Below, piece after piece: positions 16,074 to 25,840 of a stretch of 42,940 nt of DNA. Both the position numbers and the translations under genes were made by a program. The stretch comes from Candidatus Sulfotelmatobacter sp. (GTDB lineage Bacteria; Acidobacteriota; Terriglobia; Terriglobales; Acidobacteriaceae), in assembly GCA_017883425.1 (NCBI GenBank), contig JADGNP010000003.1, positions 1-42,940 of the forward strand, given 5' to 3'. Within the stretch, counting starts at the first letter, position 1. Each line of letters starts with the position of its first letter. Below the pieces are notes generated by a model. That model was not told the DNA's origin and did no database searches. It saw only the letters and a program-made list of their open reading frames with translations.

Positions 16074-17051
16074 TTAAGGAAGGTCCTCAGAACATAAGGC
16101 CGCGCCTCCAGCAATTCCTGCGTCTGCCCCGTAATGAGCCATCAACAGCGGAATATCGGAGGCGCGTGGATTCACGCACCAACTCGGAAGGCGATTCTTG
16201 ATGTCATCGAAAAACGGTTTAAGCATCGCCGCCACGCCGCCGCCCATCACCAGAACGTCAGGGTCGAGCAGATCGACGATGTTGCCGAGCCAGGGTGTTA
16301 AGACCTCGACCGTCTCGATAAGAATTTCCCGCGCCAACGGATCGCCAGCGACATAAGCCTGTCCCACCAATTCGCTGGTGACGGCGGCAACGTCTCCCTT
16401 GGCCAATTCGAGAATGGTGGAGCGAGAATGCCCTGCGGCGAGCTTGGTTCGGGCGCGGGAGCCAATCGCCGGACCGGCCGCCAGCACTTCAATGCATCCA
16501 CGTTTGCCGCAGCTGCAAAGCGGGCCATGATAGTCGATGCTCACGTGGCCGCCCTCGCCGGCGGAGCCGGTATTGCCGTGGTAGATGCGGCCGTCCAGAA
16601 CAATGCCGGTTCCAATCCCGGTTCCAATCGTGGCATAGAAAACGTAGCGGAATCCACGTGCCGCGCCCCAGCGCGTTTCCGCGAGCGCGGCGGCGTTCGC
16701 GTCGTTGTCCACTTTGACGGGGACTCGATACATCGAAGTGATTTTCTCAGCCAGCGGAAAGTTCCGCCAGCAGGGTAGATTTGGAGGATTGAGAACTATG
16801 CCGGTCTTCGGGTCCAGCGGTCCGGGCGCGCAAATCCCGATGCTGTGAATGCCGCCTGGCGCCGAGGATGCCAAGGAATCAATGGCGCCGGTGACTGCCT
16901 GAAAAGCAGCCTCGGCCGTGCCGTTTGCCACCATGGGCTTGCGGCCCTGCGTGAGTATCTTCCCGTCTCGGTCCACGAGTCCAACCGCGACTTTGGTGCC
17001 GCCGATATCGACGCCGAGAATTGGGCCGCTACGCTTTGAGTTTTCCGTCAC
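16074..17051 (-). CDS. ROK-family sugar kinase (glucokinase-like)
   Basis: GVDIGGTKVAVGLVD ATP-binding motif; CSCGKRGCIEVLAAGPAI zinc motif; GTGIGTGIVLDGRIYHGNTGSAGEGGHVSID. Confidence 0.93.
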   Translation of the reverse strand: MTENSKRSGPILGVDIGGTKVAVGLVDRDGKILTQGRKPMVANGTAEAAFQAVTGAIDSLASSAPGGIHSIGICAPGPLDPKTGIVLNPPNLPCWRNFPLAEKITSMYRVPVKVDNDANAAALAETRWGAARGFRYVFYATIGTGIGTGIVLDGRIYHGNTGSAGEGGHVSIDYHGPLCSCGKRGCIEVLAAGPAIGSRARTKLAAGHSRSTILELAKGDVAAVTSELVGQAYVAGDPLAREILIETVEVLTPWLGNIVDLLDPDVLVMGGGVAAMLKPFFDDIKNRLPSWCVNPRASDIPLLMAHYGADAGIAGGAALCSEDLP

Positions 17052-20000
17052 GGTTTGGCCGTCGCCGCGATCTGCGGTATCCCAGAGAAGCGCACCTTGA
17101 TGGTCTTAATCTCGTACGGTTTCGTGTGCAACGTAACGGCGCCATCGTGCACCGAAACGCTGGCAATCGCTCTTTCCATCAGATCGGTCTCCGCCGCAGA
17201 CTCTGCTCCCGGAGGAAGTTGAATTGTAGCCTCACCATCCTTACCGGCCCATTCGTAGAAGCGCACCACCAGCGTATTCTCGTCCTCCGCTTTCTTCAGC
17301 GCGGTCACGATGACGTTGTCCGGTTGCGCCTGCACGAAAGAATGCTCGGCCGCGAGCGCTCCCTGATGCTTTCCGAACGGCATAGAAATCAATTTGTAGT
17401 TCAGTTCATAACCACGCCGGATGGTGAGCGCATCCTTCCAGCCTCCACCGTGGGGATACAGCGAGTACGTGAACTCATGATGGCCCTCGTCGGCATGAGG
17501 GTCCGGCCACTCCGGAGACCGCAGCAGCGACAAACGAAGCACATTCCCTTTCGCGTCGTAACCATATTTACAGTCATTCAGCAGGCTGAACCCGTGCTTG
17601 GAGTCCGAGATGTCAGCCCAGCGCTGCGCCGGAACTTCAAACTGCGCCAACTCCGCGGGCGTATTTCGCGTGGTGGGACGTTCCACGGAGCCAAATGGAA
17701 TTTCAAACGCCGCTTTGTCACTGTGCGCGCTGACCGGGAACGCCACCTTCAGCAGAATATGCTTCTCATGCCATTCGGCCATCATCTTCACATCGACACG
17801 AGGCACGCCCGCGTACATGATGATATCTCGCAAGAAAGTCGAATTCTGGAAATGATTCTTGATTCGGATGATGGCTCGCAGCGGGCCGCTCTCCATGAGC
17901 TTCACTTCATCGGCCTTGTCCAGATCCCAGTGCTGCTTTTCGAAGTCCGCGTCAATATTCCACGCGTCCCACTGCTGGGGCTTATCGACGAAGGTCTGCA
18001 GCAGGTTGCCGCAGGTTGAAGTCTTGGGGCCACCCGTGTCGGTTTCCGCGGGGGCAAGCGCTTCTGTGCCGCTTCGCTTGTCAAACAGGCTGGTCATGCA
18101 GCCCGTTTGCGGATCGATCTTCACGCGGATGAATTCGTTCTCCAGCGTGTCGGAGGAAGCCTTCAGCATCGAGTGAACCGCAGGCGCCGCAGTTGCAGCG
18201 CGCACGAAATAGGTCTGGTATCCAAGGGACGGCGTGCTCGATAGCAATAAGAAGTGGGCGCGGTGAGTTTCCGCATCGAGGGAGACTAGTTGCGACTCTG
18301 CCGGCTTTCCCGTGGAATCCACTACCTCGATCTGGCGGGTTGGTGCGGGCAGTTGCACGTCAACCTCAGCCACTTCGGTGCGCGGCCACGACAGGGAATT
18401 GAAAATCAGTATCGGCGCCCCCTCGCCTTGCGTGTTGACGTGCGCGGCGATCTCGCGGAGGGACCCCATGGCAACGTCGTTCGCGGTGCGGTCGACATTT
18501 TCCAGGCTGCGTTTGGCGTCCAAGTAATTCACCGCGATACCGGAGCCCGGCATGATGTCGTGGAAGTGCTCGAACAGCAGATTCTTCCAGGTCAGTTCCA
18601 TCTCGTCTTGTGGATAAGGGCGCCCGTAGAGCAAGGCCAGCGAAGCAAACTTCTCAGCATTGAGTACTGTTTCCTCGGCGCGGCGGATTCTCCGCTTGGT
18701 TTCGGCCTGGGTCGTGAAGACTCCGCGGTGATAGGCGAAATAGAGCTCACCATCCCACGTCGGAACCTGCATGCTGGGAAGCTTCTTCTCCAGATCGCTG
18801 AAGAAGTCGCGCGCGAAACTAAACTCGAGTTTCGGATACACCGCACCCGAAGCCTTCAGTTGCTCGGCATGATCGAGCATGACGCGGGTTGGCCCGCCGC
18901 CGTGGTCGCCCACGCCATAGAGGTGCATCATCTCAGGTTTGTCGGGAACGCTCTTGCCGTAGATCGACGGCATCCAGATCGAGAGGTCGGTTGCGAGCGG
19001 CTCCGCATCGATGCCGCCAGCGTAGTCATGCGGGAAATAAGTGAGCAAACGGCTGCCGTCCGGCGCCTGCCACCAGAACAGCTTGTAAGGGAACGTGGTG
19101 AACTCGTGCGCCCAGAGCAGCTTCTGGGTGACGAAATAATCCATGCCCGACTTCTTATAGATCTGCGGGAGTTGATAGTTGTATCCAAACGAATCCGGGT
19201 TCCACCCGATTTTCACGTCCACGCCAAAATTCTTCTGAAAGTAACGCTTGCCCACCAGAATCTGGCGGACCAGAGACTCGCCGTCCGGCATATTCAGGTC
19301 GGGCTCGACCCACATGCCGCCGATGATCTCCCACCGGCCTTCCTTGACGCGCTTCTCGATCTGCTGGAAGAGGTCGGGATATTTCTCTTGCATCCACTCG
19401 TAGGTGCGCGCCGAGGACATGGTGAACTTGAAGTCCGGATACTCGCGCATTAGATCGAGCACGCTCTGGAACGTGTTGCGTACCACTTCCACGGTCTCGG
19501 TCCACGGCCACAGCCACGCCATGTCAATGTGCGAGTTGCCCACGATACGGATGTTGAACTTCTGCAGAAAGGGCTTGAGCGCTTCCAACTTGGCATGAGC
19601 CGCTTTGAGCGACGCATCAAAGCCGGCCTGATCCCCTCGATCCAACGGCGAGAAATCAATCGCCTTCAGGGCCGCTTCGAGTCGTTGTTGACGTTCAGCC
19701 TTTCCTTCTTCATAGGCAGCGATGATGGGACGGGCAGACAGAAGTTCCATCCGCAGAAAAGCGGGGTCCGGGCGCGCGTGCGGTGGTTCGAGCGTGAGTT
19801 CGCTGTGAAAGAATTCGGATTGAGCTTCGTCTCCTGCGACTACTCTCGCCGCGACCAGAAACTTCTGCCCCGGCTGCGCGTTCTCCGTCAAAAGCATGGG
19901 CAGAATATCGTCGTCGCTGCCGCGATAGAGAATCGCTCCGTTCGAGAAGACGGTGATCCTCAAGCTTTGCGGACTCCCGAAGCGCAGATCCATCGACACC

Positions 20001-20338
20001 CGTGAGCCTTGCGTCGCATAGCCATGAATCTTCTCGGGAATCTGAATCCACCGGCGGAACACGCGGGTTCCCGCCCAATGCTCCTCGTTCGCATTCCTTC
20101 CGCCTGGCTCCGACGCATTCTTCACGGTGAGCAGGCCCCAGTCGGAGTCGTTCAGCCCCGGATCTTCTGGATGGGGAACGTCAGCATGAAAGCGCCATTC
20201 GGCTTCGTCCAGACGGGTGAGCGTTTCTAGCCGGTCGAGTGTCGGCTTATAAGGATCGGGGACAGGAGAAGTCTGGGAAACCGCAAAAGCCGCGTGCATC
20301 ACAATCACGAGTATTAAGAAGATAGCGGAACGCTTCAT
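17048..20338 (-). CDS. Glycoside hydrolase family 38 alpha-mannosidase, exported
   Basis: 'NSHIDMAWLWPWTETVEVVRNTFQSVLDLM' and 'KIGWNPDSFGYNYQLPQIYKKSGMDYFVTQKL' typical of GH38; signal MKRSAIFLILVIVMHAAFAVSQ. Confidence 0.9.
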   Translation of the reverse strand: MKRSAIFLILVIVMHAAFAVSQTSPVPDPYKPTLDRLETLTRLDEAEWRFHADVPHPEDPGLNDSDWGLLTVKNASEPGGRNANEEHWAGTRVFRRWIQIPEKIHGYATQGSRVSMDLRFGSPQSLRITVFSNGAILYRGSDDDILPMLLTENAQPGQKFLVAARVVAGDEAQSEFFHSELTLEPPHARPDPAFLRMELLSARPIIAAYEEGKAERQQRLEAALKAIDFSPLDRGDQAGFDASLKAAHAKLEALKPFLQKFNIRIVGNSHIDMAWLWPWTETVEVVRNTFQSVLDLMREYPDFKFTMSSARTYEWMQEKYPDLFQQIEKRVKEGRWEIIGGMWVEPDLNMPDGESLVRQILVGKRYFQKNFGVDVKIGWNPDSFGYNYQLPQIYKKSGMDYFVTQKLLWAHEFTTFPYKLFWWQAPDGSRLLTYFPHDYAGGIDAEPLATDLSIWMPSIYGKSVPDKPEMMHLYGVGDHGGGPTRVMLDHAEQLKASGAVYPKLEFSFARDFFSDLEKKLPSMQVPTWDGELYFAYHRGVFTTQAETKRRIRRAEETVLNAEKFASLALLYGRPYPQDEMELTWKNLLFEHFHDIMPGSGIAVNYLDAKRSLENVDRTANDVAMGSLREIAAHVNTQGEGAPILIFNSLSWPRTEVAEVDVQLPAPTRQIEVVDSTGKPAESQLVSLDAETHRAHFLLLSSTPSLGYQTYFVRAATAAPAVHSMLKASSDTLENEFIRVKIDPQTGCMTSLFDKRSGTEALAPAETDTGGPKTSTCGNLLQTFVDKPQQWDAWNIDADFEKQHWDLDKADEVKLMESGPLRAIIRIKNHFQNSTFLRDIIMYAGVPRVDVKMMAEWHEKHILLKVAFPVSAHSDKAAFEIPFGSVERPTTRNTPAELAQFEVPAQRWADISDSKHGFSLLNDCKYGYDAKGNVLRLSLLRSPEWPDPHADEGHHEFTYSLYPHGGGWKDALTIRRGYELNYKLISMPFGKHQGALAAEHSFVQAQPDNVIVTALKKAEDENTLVVRFYEWAGKDGEATIQLPPGAESAAETDLMERAIASVSVHDGAVTLHTKPYEIKTIKVRFSGIPQIAATAKP

Positions 20339-20530
20339 CGAGAACGCACCTTTCCGAGCGAGGCCAGACTGCAACAGCAGTCTTTGCAGGCAACCAAAGA
20401 TTATCACTCAACAATTGTTTGGAAGCCTAAGTTGCTGATTCTACAGCGAGGTTACGCCGCCTGCGCGCGGCCTGCAAAAATTGTGATTCCTTCCATGCAA
20501 ATTATGAATCGAAGTTGTTACGTAAGATTG

Positions 20531-20559
20531 TTGACGGCACAAGCCGTTCAACTTAGAAT
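20531..20559 (+). promoter_or_regulatory. Sigma70-like promoter of the Cys-leader/sulfur operon
   Basis: TTGACG (20531-20536), 17-nt spacer, TAGAAT (20554-20559). Near-palindrome TTGACGGC-ACAA-GCCGTTCAA overlaps the -35 element and spacer. Confidence 0.65.
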
Positions 20560-20569
20560 CCAGACTCCA

Positions 20570-20662
20570 ATGTCAGATAGCTGCAATCTTCGCGCGTTGT
20601 GCTGCTGCACTTGTTGTTGTTGTGCATGCGTGTGCGCTGGCGCGGGGAGGCTGCTGACCTAA
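20570..20662 (+). CDS. Polycysteine leader peptide (candidate cysteine attenuator uORF)
   Basis: ATG..TAA encodes MSDSCNLRALCCCTCCCCACVCAGAGRLLT, 10 Cys in 30 codons (TGCTGCTGC ACT TGTTGTTGTTGT GCA TGC GTG TGC). ATG is 10 nt after the -10 hexamer. Located directly upstream of a terminator and a sulfur-assimilation operon. Confidence 0.8.
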   Translation: MSDSCNLRALCCCTCCCCACVCAGAGRLLT

Positions 20663-20690
20663 GAATTCGTTCTTAACATCGGCACTCATC

Positions 20691-20730
20691 AACCCATCGC
20701 CAGACGAACTGGCGGTGGGTTTTTTGTTTT
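20691..20730 (+). terminator. Intrinsic terminator between Cys leader and sulfite reductase (candidate attenuator)
   Basis: AACCCATCGCCAG-ACGAA-CTGGCGGTGGGTT: 13-bp stem with one T-G pair, followed by TTTTTTGTTTT. Confidence 0.88.
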
Positions 20731-20762: not shown

Positions 20763-22481
20763 ATGACAAACGCAGCGAAAGAAACCAAAGCACAACGAGT
20801 CGAGCGCCTGAAGCGCGCCCAGAACCCATGGGAGGGGCTGGAGGAAATCCGGCGCTTTGCCCGCGAGGGATTCGAATCCATCCCCCCCGAATGGATCGGG
20901 ACCTACTTCCGCTGGTGGGGCGTTTACACCCAGGGGGATGGTGCGGGAGTCACCGGCGGCCAGAATGGGGAAGGCCGGGCGTTGCAGCGTTTCATGGTGC
21001 GCATTCGCATTCCCAACGGCATGATGAGTTCCCGGCAACTGCGGGCCATTGCCGACCTCACTCGCCGCCACGCCAACGGAATCGCCGACCTTACCGTTCG
21101 TCAAAACATTCAACTGCATTGGATCACCATCGAATCGCTGCCGGAAGTGCTCGACGGCCTCTGGCAAGTCGGGCTGAATACGACCGGAGCCTGCGGTGAC
21201 GTCGTGCGCAATGTGACCGGATGCCCGGTTGCGGGGGTGGATGCGGACGAAATCGTCGACGCTTCGCCACTTGTTCTGGAAGCATCGCGACTGCTGGCGG
21301 GGAATGCCGACTTCTACAACCTGCCGCGCAAATTCAAAATCTCGATTACTGGATGCCGCGTGTGGTGTCCCTATCCCGAAATCAATGACGTGGGCCTGAC
21401 CGCACTGACTCGCACGGTTGGCGGAGAGCCGGAGGTCGGCTTCTCCCTGCGAGTCGCCGGCGGGCTTTCGACGGAACCCTATCTCGGAGCGCGCCTGAAT
21501 GCATTTGTCCGCTGGAACCAGGTTCTGCCCGTGATCAGAGGGATTGCCGAGTTGTTCCGCGACTCCGACGTGTTGCGCGAACACCGCGAACGCGCCCGGC
21601 TGAAATTCCTCTTCTTGCGGCACGGATGGACCGCAGACCGTTTTCTGGGCGAACTGCAAGAGCGCATCGGATTCCAGCTTGATCCCGCGGTCGAAGAGCG
21701 TCCTCCCGACGATGTCTACCGCGATCATGTGGGCATTCATGCGCAGAAGCAGTCCGGTCTCTCTTACGTGGGAGCGGTTGCGCTCCGCGGCCGAATCACC
21801 GCGGAACAGATGCAGTCGGCTGCGGATCTCGCCGAGCGCTATGCCGGCGGCGAATTGCGTGCCACCAACATGCAGAACCTCCTCGTCGTAAACGTGCCCA
21901 CCCTCAACGCGGAAGTGCTGGCGGGGGAATTCAACGCGATCGGATTGAAAGTCGGCGGTTCCGCCTTCTGGCGCGGCACGGTGGCGTGCAGCGGGACGGA
22001 GTTCTGCAAGCTTGCCATCACGGAGACGAAGAGCTTCTCCCGTTGGCTCGTAGAAGAACTGGAAGAACGTTTGCCCGGCTTTGATCAGCATCTGAAACTG
22101 CACGTCACGGGATGCCCCAACAGTTGCGGACAGCACTGGATCGCCGACATCGGCATTGAAGGCAAGAAGATCAAGGTTCATGACCGCATGGTCGATGCCT
22201 ACTACTTCTGCGTGGGCGGAGCGCTTGGTCTCCATCAAGCTACGGCGCGACCCGTCGGGTATCGCTGCGCCGCAACCGACGTGCCGGATGCGCTCGAACG
22301 TCTGCTGGGGCGATACCTGGCGCAGCGCGAACCGGGCGAAAATCTGCGCCGGTTCTTTGTGCGTCACAGCGACACGGAGTTGCGCGAGTTTCTGGCCGGA
22401 GAAGTCGTGGCCGCGGTAGCTCGCGATTTGCCGGACCCGACTCGGGGTCTGTCGCAATCAGCAGGAGGAATCGGTGACTAA
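20763..22481 (+). CDS. Siroheme/4Fe-4S nitrite/sulfite reductase, probably assimilatory sulfite reductase
   Basis: 'RGFESIPPEWIGTYFRWWGVYTQ', 'LTVRQNIQLHWITIESLPEVLDGL', cluster motifs 'VACSGTEFCKLAITETK' and 'VTGCPNSCGQHWIADIG'. Neighbours are siroheme synthesis genes and cysH. Confidence 0.9.
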   Translation: MTNAAKETKAQRVERLKRAQNPWEGLEEIRRFAREGFESIPPEWIGTYFRWWGVYTQGDGAGVTGGQNGEGRALQRFMVRIRIPNGMMSSRQLRAIADLTRRHANGIADLTVRQNIQLHWITIESLPEVLDGLWQVGLNTTGACGDVVRNVTGCPVAGVDADEIVDASPLVLEASRLLAGNADFYNLPRKFKISITGCRVWCPYPEINDVGLTALTRTVGGEPEVGFSLRVAGGLSTEPYLGARLNAFVRWNQVLPVIRGIAELFRDSDVLREHRERARLKFLFLRHGWTADRFLGELQERIGFQLDPAVEERPPDDVYRDHVGIHAQKQSGLSYVGAVALRGRITAEQMQSAADLAERYAGGELRATNMQNLLVVNVPTLNAEVLAGEFNAIGLKVGGSAFWRGTVACSGTEFCKLAITETKSFSRWLVEELEERLPGFDQHLKLHVTGCPNSCGQHWIADIGIEGKKIKVHDRMVDAYYFCVGGALGLHQATARPVGYRCAATDVPDALERLLGRYLAQREPGENLRRFFVRHSDTELREFLAGEVVAAVARDLPDPTRGLSQSAGGIGD

Positions 22482-23094
22482 CTTGTTTCCCATGTTTCTG
22501 AAGCTGGAAGGCAGGCAATGCCTGGTCGTGGGCGCCGGGAAAGTCGGCGAACCAAAGATCGGCGGCCTGCTTGAGACGGGTGCGCGACTCCGCGTGGTTG
22601 CTCTCGATGCAAGTCCCACGGTCCGCGAATGGGCGCGGGCTGGAAAGCTCGACCTCGAGTTGCGTGCCTTCTCGGCGGAAGACCTGGACGGCGCGTTCCT
22701 GGCAGTTGTGGCGACGAATTCACGCAGCCTGAATGAGCGCGTCTATCACGAGGCGCGGAACCGTGGCGTGCTGTGCAATGTGGTCGATGTTCCTGATCTC
22801 TGCGATTTCTTCTATCCCGCCGTCGTGCGCCGCGGCGATCTGCAAATCGCCATTTCAACCGCCGGACAGAGTCCATCGCTGGCCCAGAAAATTCGCCAAC
22901 AGCTTGAAAAACAATTTGGCCCCGGATACGCCGCGTGGGTGGCGGAACTCGGCGAGACTCGAAAACTGATTCTCGCCAGCGATCTTGCCAAAGAACGCAA
23001 GCTGGACCTGTTGCATTCGCTGGCGAGCAGGGAAGCGCTGGAAGCAGCCCTGGCTCAGACCCCCGAACTAGCCGCAAAAGGAGAGGGAGCATGA
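22474..23094 (+). CDS. Precorrin-2 dehydrogenase/sirohydrochlorin ferrochelatase (CysG N-domain/Met8-like)
   Basis: MTNLFPMFLKLEGRQCLVVGAGKVGEPKIGGLLETGARLRVVA; 'NSRSLNERVYHEARNRGVLCNVVDVPDLCDFFYPAVVRRGDLQIAISTAGQSPSLAQKIRQQLE'. GTG start. Confidence 0.9.
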   Translation: MTNLFPMFLKLEGRQCLVVGAGKVGEPKIGGLLETGARLRVVALDASPTVREWARAGKLDLELRAFSAEDLDGAFLAVVATNSRSLNERVYHEARNRGVLCNVVDVPDLCDFFYPAVVRRGDLQIAISTAGQSPSLAQKIRQQLEKQFGPGYAAWVAELGETRKLILASDLAKERKLDLLHSLASREALEAALAQTPELAAKGEGA

Positions 23095-23930
23095 AAGGCA
23101 AGGTTTATCTAGTTGGCGCTGGGCCGGGCGACCCGGAGTTGCTCACCCTGAAAGCGCTACGCGTGCTGAAAACGGCCGATGCTGTGCTGCACGACGACCT
23201 GGTCGCTCCCGAGATATTGAAACTCATCCCTTCCACGGCGCAGATGCACAACGTCGGCAAGCGCTGCGGCAAGAAAAAGATTCGGCAGGAGGAAATCAAT
23301 TTTCTCATGGTCGCGCTCGCGGACTCCGGACTGCGGGTCGTCCGGCTGAAGAGTGGCGATCCGCTGATCTTCGGACGAGCCGGGGAAGAAATCGAATCGC
23401 TGCGCAGGGCCAACATCCCCTTCGAGATTGTGCCGGGCGTGACTTCCGCCCTGGGCGCGGCAGCCGCAGCGCAGATCCCGTTGACCCATCGCCGCGCGTC
23501 GTCCGCCCTTGTATTCATCACTGCGCATCAGGCCCCTGGAAGCGACGCCGCAAACTGGGGCAAGCTGGCCGGAAGCGGGGCGACGCTGGTGATCTATATG
23601 CCCGGACAGAACTACTGCGAGGTTGCCGCGAAGCTGAAGGCGGCTGGGCTTGCCGGCGAGACGCCCTGTGCCGTCATCTCGCGTGCGACAACCCCGCACC
23701 AGCGAGCCCACCGTTCCACGATCGCCGAGTTGTCTCGCTCGCCGAAGCTCGCCGCTCCCACGCTGCTGGTCGTGGGAGAAGTCGTGCGCTTTACCGATCC
23801 TGTAGCCCTCGCGCAGCAACTTGGAGTGCCGGGTATTTCCGCGGGCAACGACAGCCCTCTTGCCACCGTACTATTTGCGGATCCCCCTTCGGCAGCGGAC
23901 TTCAGAACAAATGAGGAGCCACTCGCGTGA
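23091..23930 (+). CDS. cobA: Uroporphyrinogen-III C-methyltransferase
   Basis: MKGKVYLVGAGPGDPELLTLKALRVLKTADAVLHDDLV; 'RLKSGDPLIFGRAGEEIESLRRANIPFEIVPGVTSALGAAAAAQIPLTHR'. Start corrected to ATG 23091, overlapping the upstream stop. Confidence 0.93.
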   Translation: MKGKVYLVGAGPGDPELLTLKALRVLKTADAVLHDDLVAPEILKLIPSTAQMHNVGKRCGKKKIRQEEINFLMVALADSGLRVVRLKSGDPLIFGRAGEEIESLRRANIPFEIVPGVTSALGAAAAAQIPLTHRRASSALVFITAHQAPGSDAANWGKLAGSGATLVIYMPGQNYCEVAAKLKAAGLAGETPCAVISRATTPHQRAHRSTIAELSRSPKLAAPTLLVVGEVVRFTDPVALAQQLGVPGISAGNDSPLATVLFADPPSAADFRTNEEPLA

Positions 23931-24691
23931 AACACCATCTCCAGGACCGTGTTCAAGAGCAGATCGCAGATATTCAGCATGCGGCCGAGCATTGGACTCC
24001 GCAGCACGCTCTGACTTGGGCGTTCGAGACCTTCGGGAACAGTGTGGCCATTTCCTCGGCGTTCGGAGCCGAGGGAATGGTGCTGATCGATATGGCTTCG
24101 CGGGTCCACAGAGACTTCCGCCTTTTCACCATTGACACGGAATTCCTGTTCCCCGAGACCTACAACTTGATGGACAGGATCGAAGAAAAGTACGGCATCG
24201 CGATCGAGAAAGTGTATTCCGTGCTCTCACCCGAAGAGCAGGAACGCAGTCACGGAACGGCGCTGTGGACACGCGATCCCGACCTCTGCTGCAGCCTGCG
24301 GAAAGTCGAACCACTCCGTCGCAAACTCAGCGAGTTGAGCGCGTGGATCACGAGCATTCGCCGCGACCAGACCTCGGTCCGCTCCAGTGCGTGCAGAGTT
24401 GAATGGGATGCCAAGTTCGGCTTGCCGAAGATCAATCCAATTGCCGACTGGACGTCAAAGCAGGTGTGGCGCTACATCCACGACCATGATGTTCCTTACA
24501 ACGCACTTCACAATCAGGACTATCCCAGCATCGGCTGCACGCATTGCACTCGCGCCGTCCGCCCGGGAGAAGATCCGCGTGCGGGACGCTGGCCGGGATT
24601 TGCCAAAACCGAGTGCGGCCTGCACATCATCGAGCCTGTGCCGGGCTCGCCTGCCGCGAGTGCGTCGAAAGCCGCCAAGTTCGGCAACTGA
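23927..24691 (+). CDS. cysH: Assimilatory (phospho)adenylyl-sulfate reductase, probably the 4Fe-4S APS type
   Basis: 'SSAFGAEGMVLIDMA', 'IDTEFLFPETYNLMDRI', 'CCSLRKVEPLRRKL', 'WITSIRRDQTSVR', 'CTHCTRAVRPGEDPRAGRWPGFAKTECGLH'. CC...CxxC pattern is typical of cluster-bearing APS reductases. Confidence 0.93.
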   Translation: MKHHLQDRVQEQIADIQHAAEHWTPQHALTWAFETFGNSVAISSAFGAEGMVLIDMASRVHRDFRLFTIDTEFLFPETYNLMDRIEEKYGIAIEKVYSVLSPEEQERSHGTALWTRDPDLCCSLRKVEPLRRKLSELSAWITSIRRDQTSVRSSACRVEWDAKFGLPKINPIADWTSKQVWRYIHDHDVPYNALHNQDYPSIGCTHCTRAVRPGEDPRAGRWPGFAKTECGLHIIEPVPGSPAASASKAAKFGN

Positions 24692-24937: not shown

Positions 24938-25840
24938 TTAATCGTCCGTCTTTTTCATTTGCGTGGCGAACTGACGCAATAGAGCGACAAACGCAGTGGA
25001 GGCCACCGAGAGCGTTCGGTCGCGCCGGTAGGCAAGTCCCAGTTCGCGGTACAGCACCGCGTCCTCGAGATCAATCAGTTTGACTCGCCCGGCATCCACT
25101 TCATCGCGGGCGAAGGACGCGCTGATGAGCGACACGCCCAGATCCGCCGCCACGAAGCTCTTGATCATGCCGATGCTGGGCAGTTCCATTCGCACCTGCA
25201 GTTCGGCGGCGTGGGGCCGAAACAGCTTATCCAACAGCCGTCGCGTATGTCCCGTCTTCGGAAGCAGCAGAGGATGTTTGACGATCTCGCTGACCGGCAC
25301 CACCTTGAATTTCGCCAGCGGATTCTTGGGGCTCACCATCAACATCAGCTTGTCGCGGAAGATCGGATAGATCTTCAAACTCGGAGATTGGATGGGTAAA
25401 GTCAATATGCCCACCTCCACCTGCCCGTTTTCCAGCTTTTCCACGATTTTGTAGGTGAAGTTCCGGTAGATGCTGATCTGCACCGGGGGATAGCGGCGGC
25501 AATATTCGCCGAAAACCTCGGGCAGAACATACAAACAGGTGGCCTCGTTGGCGCCCACCCGCAGCGTGCCACGCGGGGTGCCGCTGTGGTCGGCGACCGC
25601 CATTAACGATTCGTCCCGCAGACTCTTCAGGCGCTCGGCGTATTCGAAAAACACCTGGCCGGCGGGGGTAAGTTTCACCGTTTTGCCCGAGCGGTCGAGC
25701 AGCCGGTCACCGTATTCCTGCTCCAGTTGACGGATTTGCGCGCTGACCGCCGACTGCGACCGAAAAACCTTCTCCCCGGCGCGCGAAAAGCTACCCTGCC
25801 TGGCAACTTCCAGGAACGTGATGAGCTGATCAAAGTCCAT
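24938..25840 (-). CDS. LysR-family transcriptional regulator
   Basis: MDFDQLITFLEVARQGSFSRAGEKVFRSQSAVSAQIRQLEQEYGDRLLDRSGKTVKLTPAG: classic LysR wHTH. TATAAT -10 candidate at 25855-25860 (complement). Confidence 0.95.
   Translation of the reverse strand: MDFDQLITFLEVARQGSFSRAGEKVFRSQSAVSAQIRQLEQEYGDRLLDRSGKTVKLTPAGQVFFEYAERLKSLRDESLMAVADHSGTPRGTLRVGANEATCLYVLPEVFGEYCRRYPPVQISIYRNFTYKIVEKLENGQVEVGILTLPIQSPSLKIYPIFRDKLMLMVSPKNPLAKFKVVPVSEIVKHPLLLPKTGHTRRLLDKLFRPHAAELQVRMELPSIGMIKSFVAADLGVSLISASFARDEVDAGRVKLIDLEDAVLYRELGLAYRRDRTLSVASTAFVALLRQFATQMKKTDD

Follow-up and report, generated by a model that had tools for sequence, protein, structure and literature searches.

What controls the sulfite reductase/siroheme/cysH operon of Candidatus Sulfotelmatobacter sp. 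(Acidobacteriota)? The question is raised by a 42,940-nucleotide (nt) stretch of contig JADGNP010000003.1 (assembly GCA_017883425.1), hereafter the window. Ahead of the operon, at 20531-20725 on the + strand and with promoter and terminator included, lies an element that an earlier note had read, from the letters alone, as a set of mutually exclusive RNA pairings. Our analysis of this element in the window and in its relatives indicates that it is very probably a cysteine-responsive leader-peptide transcription attenuator controlling the operon. Its sequence anatomy, its conservation, the coevolution of its pairings and the placement of its promoter are direct observations.

The leader open reading frame (ORF; 20570-20662, + strand) encodes MSDSCNLRALCCCTCCCCACVCAGAGRLLT and ends with a UAA stop codon at 20660. 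Direct reading gives 10 cysteines (Cys) among its 30 residues. One Cys codon, codon 5, stands ahead of the main cluster at 20600-20635 (+ strand), which comprises codons 11-13, 15-18, 20 and 22, includes the inner block TGTTGTTGTTGT and closes with TGC at 20633-20635. An independent scan placed an intrinsic terminator at 20691-20725 (+ strand), in which 20691-20703 pairs with 20709-20721 over 13 base pairs (bp), followed by a U run. The same scan returned a single promoter-like site, sigma-70-like in form, at 20531-20559 on the + strand (TTGACG at 20531-20536, a 17-nt spacer and TAGAAT at 20554-20559), and its -10 element ends 10 nt ahead of the leader AUG. The terminator follows this promoter and precedes the nirA-type gene, which begins at 20763. 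Since the neighbouring upstream gene (17048-20407) is on the minus strand and divergent from the leader, the stem at 20691-20721 does not mark the end of that gene.

Three segments of the + strand RNA offer alternative partners: segment 2 can bind either segment 1 or segment 3, and segment 3 can bind either segment 2 or the terminator 3' arm. Segment 1, the protector or anti-antiterminator (20572-20595), contains GUCAG (20572-20576), UAGCU (20578-20582) and UCUUCGCGC (20587-20595) and was delimited from the predicted fold of the leader ORF and from the family tests described below. Segment 2 (20637-20658), with CUGGCG, GGG and UGCUGA, is a copy of the terminator 3' arm. Segment 3 (20679-20703) contains UCGGCA (20679-20684), CCC (20693-20695) and CGCCAG (20698-20703), the last two within the terminator 5' arm. 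Direct reading agrees with the earlier note that CTGGCGCGGGG (20637-20647) begins one nt past the last Cys codon and repeats the terminator 3' arm CTGGCGGTGGG (20709-20719), and that it can pair with the 5' arm CCCATCGCCAG (20693-20703) exactly as 6 bp, two mismatches and 3 bp. Fold prediction keeps these two helices of the antiterminator and adds a third, UGCUGA/UCGGCA, which the note had overlooked. Its proposed pairing of CGCGC (20591-20595) with GCGCG (20640-20644) is likewise correctly placed but too short, the predicted protector being UCUUCGCGC/GCGCGGGGA together with UAGCU/GGCUG and GUCAG/CUGAC.

The minimum-free-energy fold predicted for the leader ORF is a single long hairpin (-40.8 kcal/mol) that carries the Cys codons in its upper part. 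Its core helix joins segment 1 to GCGCGGGGA at 20640-20648, and the two outer helices use GGCUG (20649-20653) and CUGAC (20654-20658). For the full-length RNA without a ribosome, the predicted fold is this 1:2 hairpin plus the terminator. When the RNA from 20637 to 20703 is folded alone, mimicking a ribosome stalled upstream, the antiterminator is predicted instead (-24.6 kcal/mol), with CUGGCG/CGCCAG, GGG/CCC, UGCUGA (20652-20657) paired to UCGGCA, and a small apical hairpin. The 2:3 fold and the terminator are mutually exclusive in these predictions. Against dinucleotide-shuffled leaders, both alternative pairings of the window leader are stronger than expected (z -2.48, p 0.017 for 2:3; z -3.01, p 0.013 for 1:2). 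The same holds against random synonymous recoding of the same peptide with the Cys codons kept, which gives z -3.12 (p 0.005) for the antiterminator and z -2.40 (p 0.03) for the ORF hairpin.

From this arrangement we infer how the switch would operate, from the transcription start and leader translation to ribosome stalling and the direction of the response. RNA polymerase would start at about 20566-20570, which puts no more than about 4 nt ahead of the leader AUG, so that the ORF would be read with little or no 5' untranslated region (UTR). When charged cysteine transfer RNA (Cys-tRNA) is scarce, a ribosome would stall at Cys codon 5 or in codons 11-18, which direct reading places at 20600-20623, as the note had it. 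The stalled ribosome would mask or unfold segment 1, or split it from segment 2, and leave 20637-20658 free. Segment 2 could then capture segment 3, the terminator could not close, and the operon would be transcribed. When Cys is plentiful, the ribosome would reach the UAA and cover UGCUGA; segment 1 would pair with segment 2 behind the terminating ribosome, segment 3 would be left to the 3' arm, and transcription would stop at 20720-20725. The ORF hairpin would also form in untranslated RNA, and the default outcome would therefore be termination. The argument from stall position is reasonable for codon 5 and for codons 11-18. Stalling at codon 20 or 22 would take place so near segment 2 as to cover it, and these two codons are probably not sensors.

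Conservation of the element was followed outward from the window. A search with the window reductase found nirA-type matches in 55 of 61 related genomes, and wherever upstream DNA was available within the genus, in 31 genomes, a Cys-run leader and a terminator precede nirA. These genus leaders share one build: some 30 residues including a Cys run, the motif CTGGC, a terminator of the CCCAYCGCCAG/CTGGCGGTGGG type and a promoter just ahead of the AUG. Two of them, L018 and L023, retain the RNA pairings with just three Cys codons in their run. For the phylum, a scan of named genomes gave 80 loci. Upstream DNA was usable at 57 Acidobacteriota loci, and manual counting found a Cys-run leader at 52 of them. 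Leaders L120 and L114 carry the genus labels Edaphobacter and Acidobacterium. The other five are L089, which is cut off, and L079, L087, L093 and L112, which have no clear leader. No Cys-run leader was present at any of the 18 Rokubacteria/Methylomirabilota loci. One record labelled Opitutia (L119) has an Acidobacteria-type reductase and a Cys leader, and is probably mis-binned or a case of horizontal transfer.

Leader sequence and length vary widely over the phylum while the Cys run stays, and this bears on the idea that the RNA is a ligand-binding riboswitch or another RNA sensor in which the Cys-rich ORF is incidental. Sulfur genes in other phyla are often controlled by riboswitches, and the window does have a long structured leader ahead of a terminator. 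However, an Rfam scan of the window returned no family at the gathering threshold, riboswitch and T-box families included, and there is no conserved aptamer-like core. TGT is moreover enriched in the Cys runs, as detailed below. We regard such a sensor as extremely improbable.

Homologous leaders retain all three of the mutually exclusive pairings, the point on which the earlier note had staked its reading. In the shuffle test the 2:3 pairing averages z -2.72 within the genus (n=30) and -1.70 among leaders from outside it (n=46), and the 1:2 pairing -2.66 (n=30) and -1.53 (n=44). The synonymous-recoding test gives a significant antiterminator in 26 of 30 leaders from the genus and a significant ORF hairpin in 24 of 31, compared with 17 of 46 and 14 of 52 leaders from outside it. 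Pair counts in an alignment of 37 leaders show terminator covariation exceeding that in all shuffles.

Several observations weigh against the attenuator reading. Taken one by one, roughly half or more of the distant leaders fail to reach significance in the shuffle and recoding tests. A few distant leaders have no terminator by the scan used, and very short leaders such as MDRFSCCRLCCTPRAHR have no clear 1:2 helix. One genus genome, L010 (G031), has lost its leader start and -10 through a short deletion relative to L008; it retains the Cys run, pairings and terminator, and is either a naturally broken attenuator or an assembly fault. Finally, antiterminator covariation in the 37-leader alignment is not above shuffles within the genus. 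The antiterminator positions pair in 85% of the alignment cells, and the count is uninformative because CUGGCG/CGCCAG hardly varies.

We therefore turned to swap tests between clades, in which each leader's own segment pair was compared with segments exchanged between dissimilar leaders (6-mer Jaccard < 0.08, 15 leaders). A leader's own partner is the best one (z -4.70 for 2:3 and -4.18 for 1:2, p 5e-5 each), among leaders that have common ancestry in design and are thus not fully independent samples. Sets of 27 and 45 leaders gave the same outcome, and an earlier clustering agrees; a clustering threshold of 55% identity gave two representatives, too few for the test to have power. Individual changes illustrate the coevolution. 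L009 has GGCUG/CGGCC where most leaders have UGCUG/CRGCA, a two-sided change, and L056 and L060 have UGCCG/CGGCA. The protector itself occurs in two registers. In the window's group, segment 1 is CUUCGCGC (20588-20595 in the window) with partner GCGCGGGG, and in the other half of the genus CGCCAG pairs with CUGGCG, often with UCAGCAAU (codons 4-6) pairing with AUUGCUGA in addition. Despite the shift in register, the same segment 2 is still captured; and with CGCCAG plus UCAGCAAU in segment 1, both halves of segment 3 are copied. Distant leaders have a design, not a sequence, in common. Taken as evidence from comparison of sequences, these results support the interpretation of mutually exclusive pairings given in the earlier note.

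One subgroup departs from the general build. The leaders of L106, L109, L113, L116, L118, L119, L123, L124 and L125 have about 17 residues with CCRCC or similar, followed in several by TGACCTGGGTCT. Their terminators are present and a clear 1:2 helix is not, and their switching logic may differ.

Promoter placement was compared across the leaders. With a promoter pattern of TTGA or TTGC, 16-18 nt and TANNNT, the promoter ends 5-11 nt ahead of the leader AUG in 63 of 83 leaders; of 3842 control ATGs in the same loci, 2 have a promoter so placed. If transcription starts 7 nt past the -10, the start coincides with the AUG in many leaders and precedes it by no more than about 4 nt in the window, a spacing compatible with a leaderless messenger RNA (mRNA) or a 5' UTR of at most about 4 nt. 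Because of this spacing, the leader mRNA is probably leaderless or near-leaderless. For three Acidobacteria genomes, a survey predicted that 10-19% of genes are leaderless (PMC3160421).

A Cys-run input, a (near-)leaderless leader and nirA or cys target genes are also what mycobacterial polycysteine ORFs have, and the element could accordingly work by translation attenuation, with the leader governing access of ribosomes to the downstream gene and not termination. What speaks against this is the position and conservation of the terminator. A 13-bp stem with a U run stands between leader and gene in nearly all relatives, and it covaries. The alternative pairings engage the terminator 5' arm, not a ribosome-binding site, and the terminator ends about 40 nt ahead of the nirA AUG and hides no Shine-Dalgarno-like sequence. 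Translation attenuation is in our judgement very unlikely, and we favour control of termination.

Codon usage points to constraint at the level of RNA. An in-frame NCT-GGC/GGT motif is present in all 45 tested leaders from the genus and near relatives. The codon ahead of GGC is TCT, GCT, ACT or CCT, so that the residue varies among A, T, S and P while CTGG is constant, as expected under selection on the RNA. In the leader Cys runs TGT outnumbers TGC by 289 to 77 (79%, 289/366), whereas in the downstream genes the counts are 78 and 764 (TGT 9%). The codon constraint and the TGT bias bear indirectly on the presumed translation of the leader. The codon constraint also helps to judge whether the Cys-rich peptide acts in trans, for example by binding metal or in redox chemistry, in which case the hairpins would be the usual terminator of an independent small gene. 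Good conservation of the C-terminal GAGRLLT within the genus would suit such a peptide. This conservation, however, tracks nucleotides: NCT GGC is held fixed even though the first residue may be A, T, S or P. Leaders from outside the genus have a remade C-terminus yet retain the pairing, and some leaders have only 16-17 residues. A trans-acting peptide is therefore highly improbable.

The four genes downstream, all on the + strand, match domains or families of sulfate/sulfite reduction or siroheme synthesis. The first (20763-22481) encodes a nirA-type ferredoxin-dependent sulfite/nitrite reductase with NIR_SIR domains, whose nearest solved structure is M. tuberculosis NirA (1zj8). It is followed by a cysG N-terminal-type siroheme synthase (precorrin-2 dehydrogenase; 22474-23094, TIGR01470 above cut-off), a cobA/cysG C-terminal-type uroporphyrinogen-III methyltransferase (23091-23930, TIGR01469 above cut-off) and a cysH phosphoadenylyl-/adenylyl-sulfate reductase (23927-24691, NF002537 and TIGR00434 above cut-off). 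The cysH neighbour and the Cys leader suggest that the reductase acts on sulfite rather than nitrite. As the operon products would supply sulfide and the siroheme cofactor, cysteine is the end product that such a switch would naturally monitor.

The promoter may carry a second layer of control. A GATTC-N16-GAATC inverted repeat or close variants of it, at 20485-20510 in the window, is conserved ahead of the -35 across a large part of the genus and is likely an activator or repressor site; two control layers on the operon may therefore exist. A LysR-type regulator gene (24938-25840, minus strand) adjoins and converges on the operon. CysB is among the many LysR models that it matches, none above its own cut-off, and its product is a candidate for the conserved upstream site. 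The repeat and the adjoining regulator gene would also fit a transcription factor acting at the promoter as the main control, the attenuator contributing little. We consider this unlikely, for it leaves the Cys run, the mutually exclusive pairings and the leaderless placement unexplained, and both layers may act together.

The attenuator may not be confined to nirA. In an order-level relative (G038), a second Cys-run leader precedes cysD (L190, about 1157-1330). Read by eye, it has TTGACT, TAATGT, 6 nt, AUG and MVRTSSHMCRCCCHTTCMWPEVGRNPR, and a hairpin resembling a terminator in which an antiterminator-like GAGGTGGG matches CCCACCTC. With one more leader built in this way, a cysteine attenuator regulon is possible. 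In the window's own genome, 41 TGYTGYTGYTGY sites were found, and reading of 30 loci gave no second leader with promoter and terminator. The cysE upstream regions read in genus genomes had no Cys leader, and cysD was not found in the genus. More tentatively, and with considerable doubt, we suggest a self-locking leaderless attenuator in which one ribosome per transcript decides. Segment 1 starts within the start codon at the 5' end of the RNA, and its GUCAG pairs with CUGAC at the end of the ORF; once the first ribosome is released at the stop codon, the ORF hairpin would therefore close over the AUG and bar re-initiation. Such a design would have spread through the sulfur operons of Acidobacteriota, cysD among them, each lineage remaking the pairings.

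The closest known systems fall into three groups. Like the trp and his attenuators of E. coli and the ilvB1 attenuator of M. tuberculosis, the element has a short ORF rich in the regulated amino acid and a biosynthetic operon downstream. It also shares with them overlapping 1:2, 2:3 and 3:4 hairpins and an intrinsic terminator between leader and first gene; its protector (1:2), which would free segment 3 once translation is complete, is weak in the shortest distant leaders. It differs from these attenuators in that cysteine is read, the RNA probably starts at or close to the leader AUG, the entire leader ORF folds on itself to make the 1:2 helix and the hosts are Acidobacteriota. Attenuation at ilvB1 follows the same logic of ribosome position, according to PMC13236596.

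The second group is mycobacterial. Leaderless Cys-rich ORFs lie ahead of cysA2 and nirA in mycobacteria and were proposed in 2015 as what would be the first cysteine-directed attenuation in bacteria (PMC4633059). According to PMC9031893, PMC9094748 and PMC13236596, Canestrari et al. (2020) showed that they respond to cysteine, and this is cited as translation attenuation. These ORFs resemble the present leaders in their Cys codon run, in the downstream cys genes including nirA and probably also in a leaderless or near-leaderless mRNA. In contrast to the translation attenuation reported for them (PMC13236596), the present leaders have a conserved intrinsic terminator and a matching antiterminator. 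Terminator-free control of ribosome access, as in the mycobacterial type, does not fit the present element: the terminator is conserved and the pairing engages its arm. As a third group, Cys leader peptides were predicted in 2005 in Mycobacterium and other Actinobacteria without terminators (PMC1262725); those too are Cys-run ORFs upstream of cys operons, and the difference is the near-universal terminators here. A 2010 paper remarked that hardly any attenuator predicted in Acidobacteria had a function attached to it (PMC2965389). In the literature open to search, the cysteine leader peptides of Actinobacteria lack terminators, those of mycobacteria are described as translation attenuators, and no other kind appears; subscription papers could hold an Acidobacteriota case. 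The Acidobacteriota element would share its workings with trp and his, and its input and start arrangement with the mycobacterial ORFs.

The finding would mean that one of the most abundant soil phyla has a full cysteine transcription attenuator, in which classical attenuation probably runs on leaderless or near-leaderless translation. Dozens of naturally rebuilt versions would serve as compensatory mutants, and control of sulfur assimilation by Cys-tRNA in Acidobacteriota becomes directly testable.
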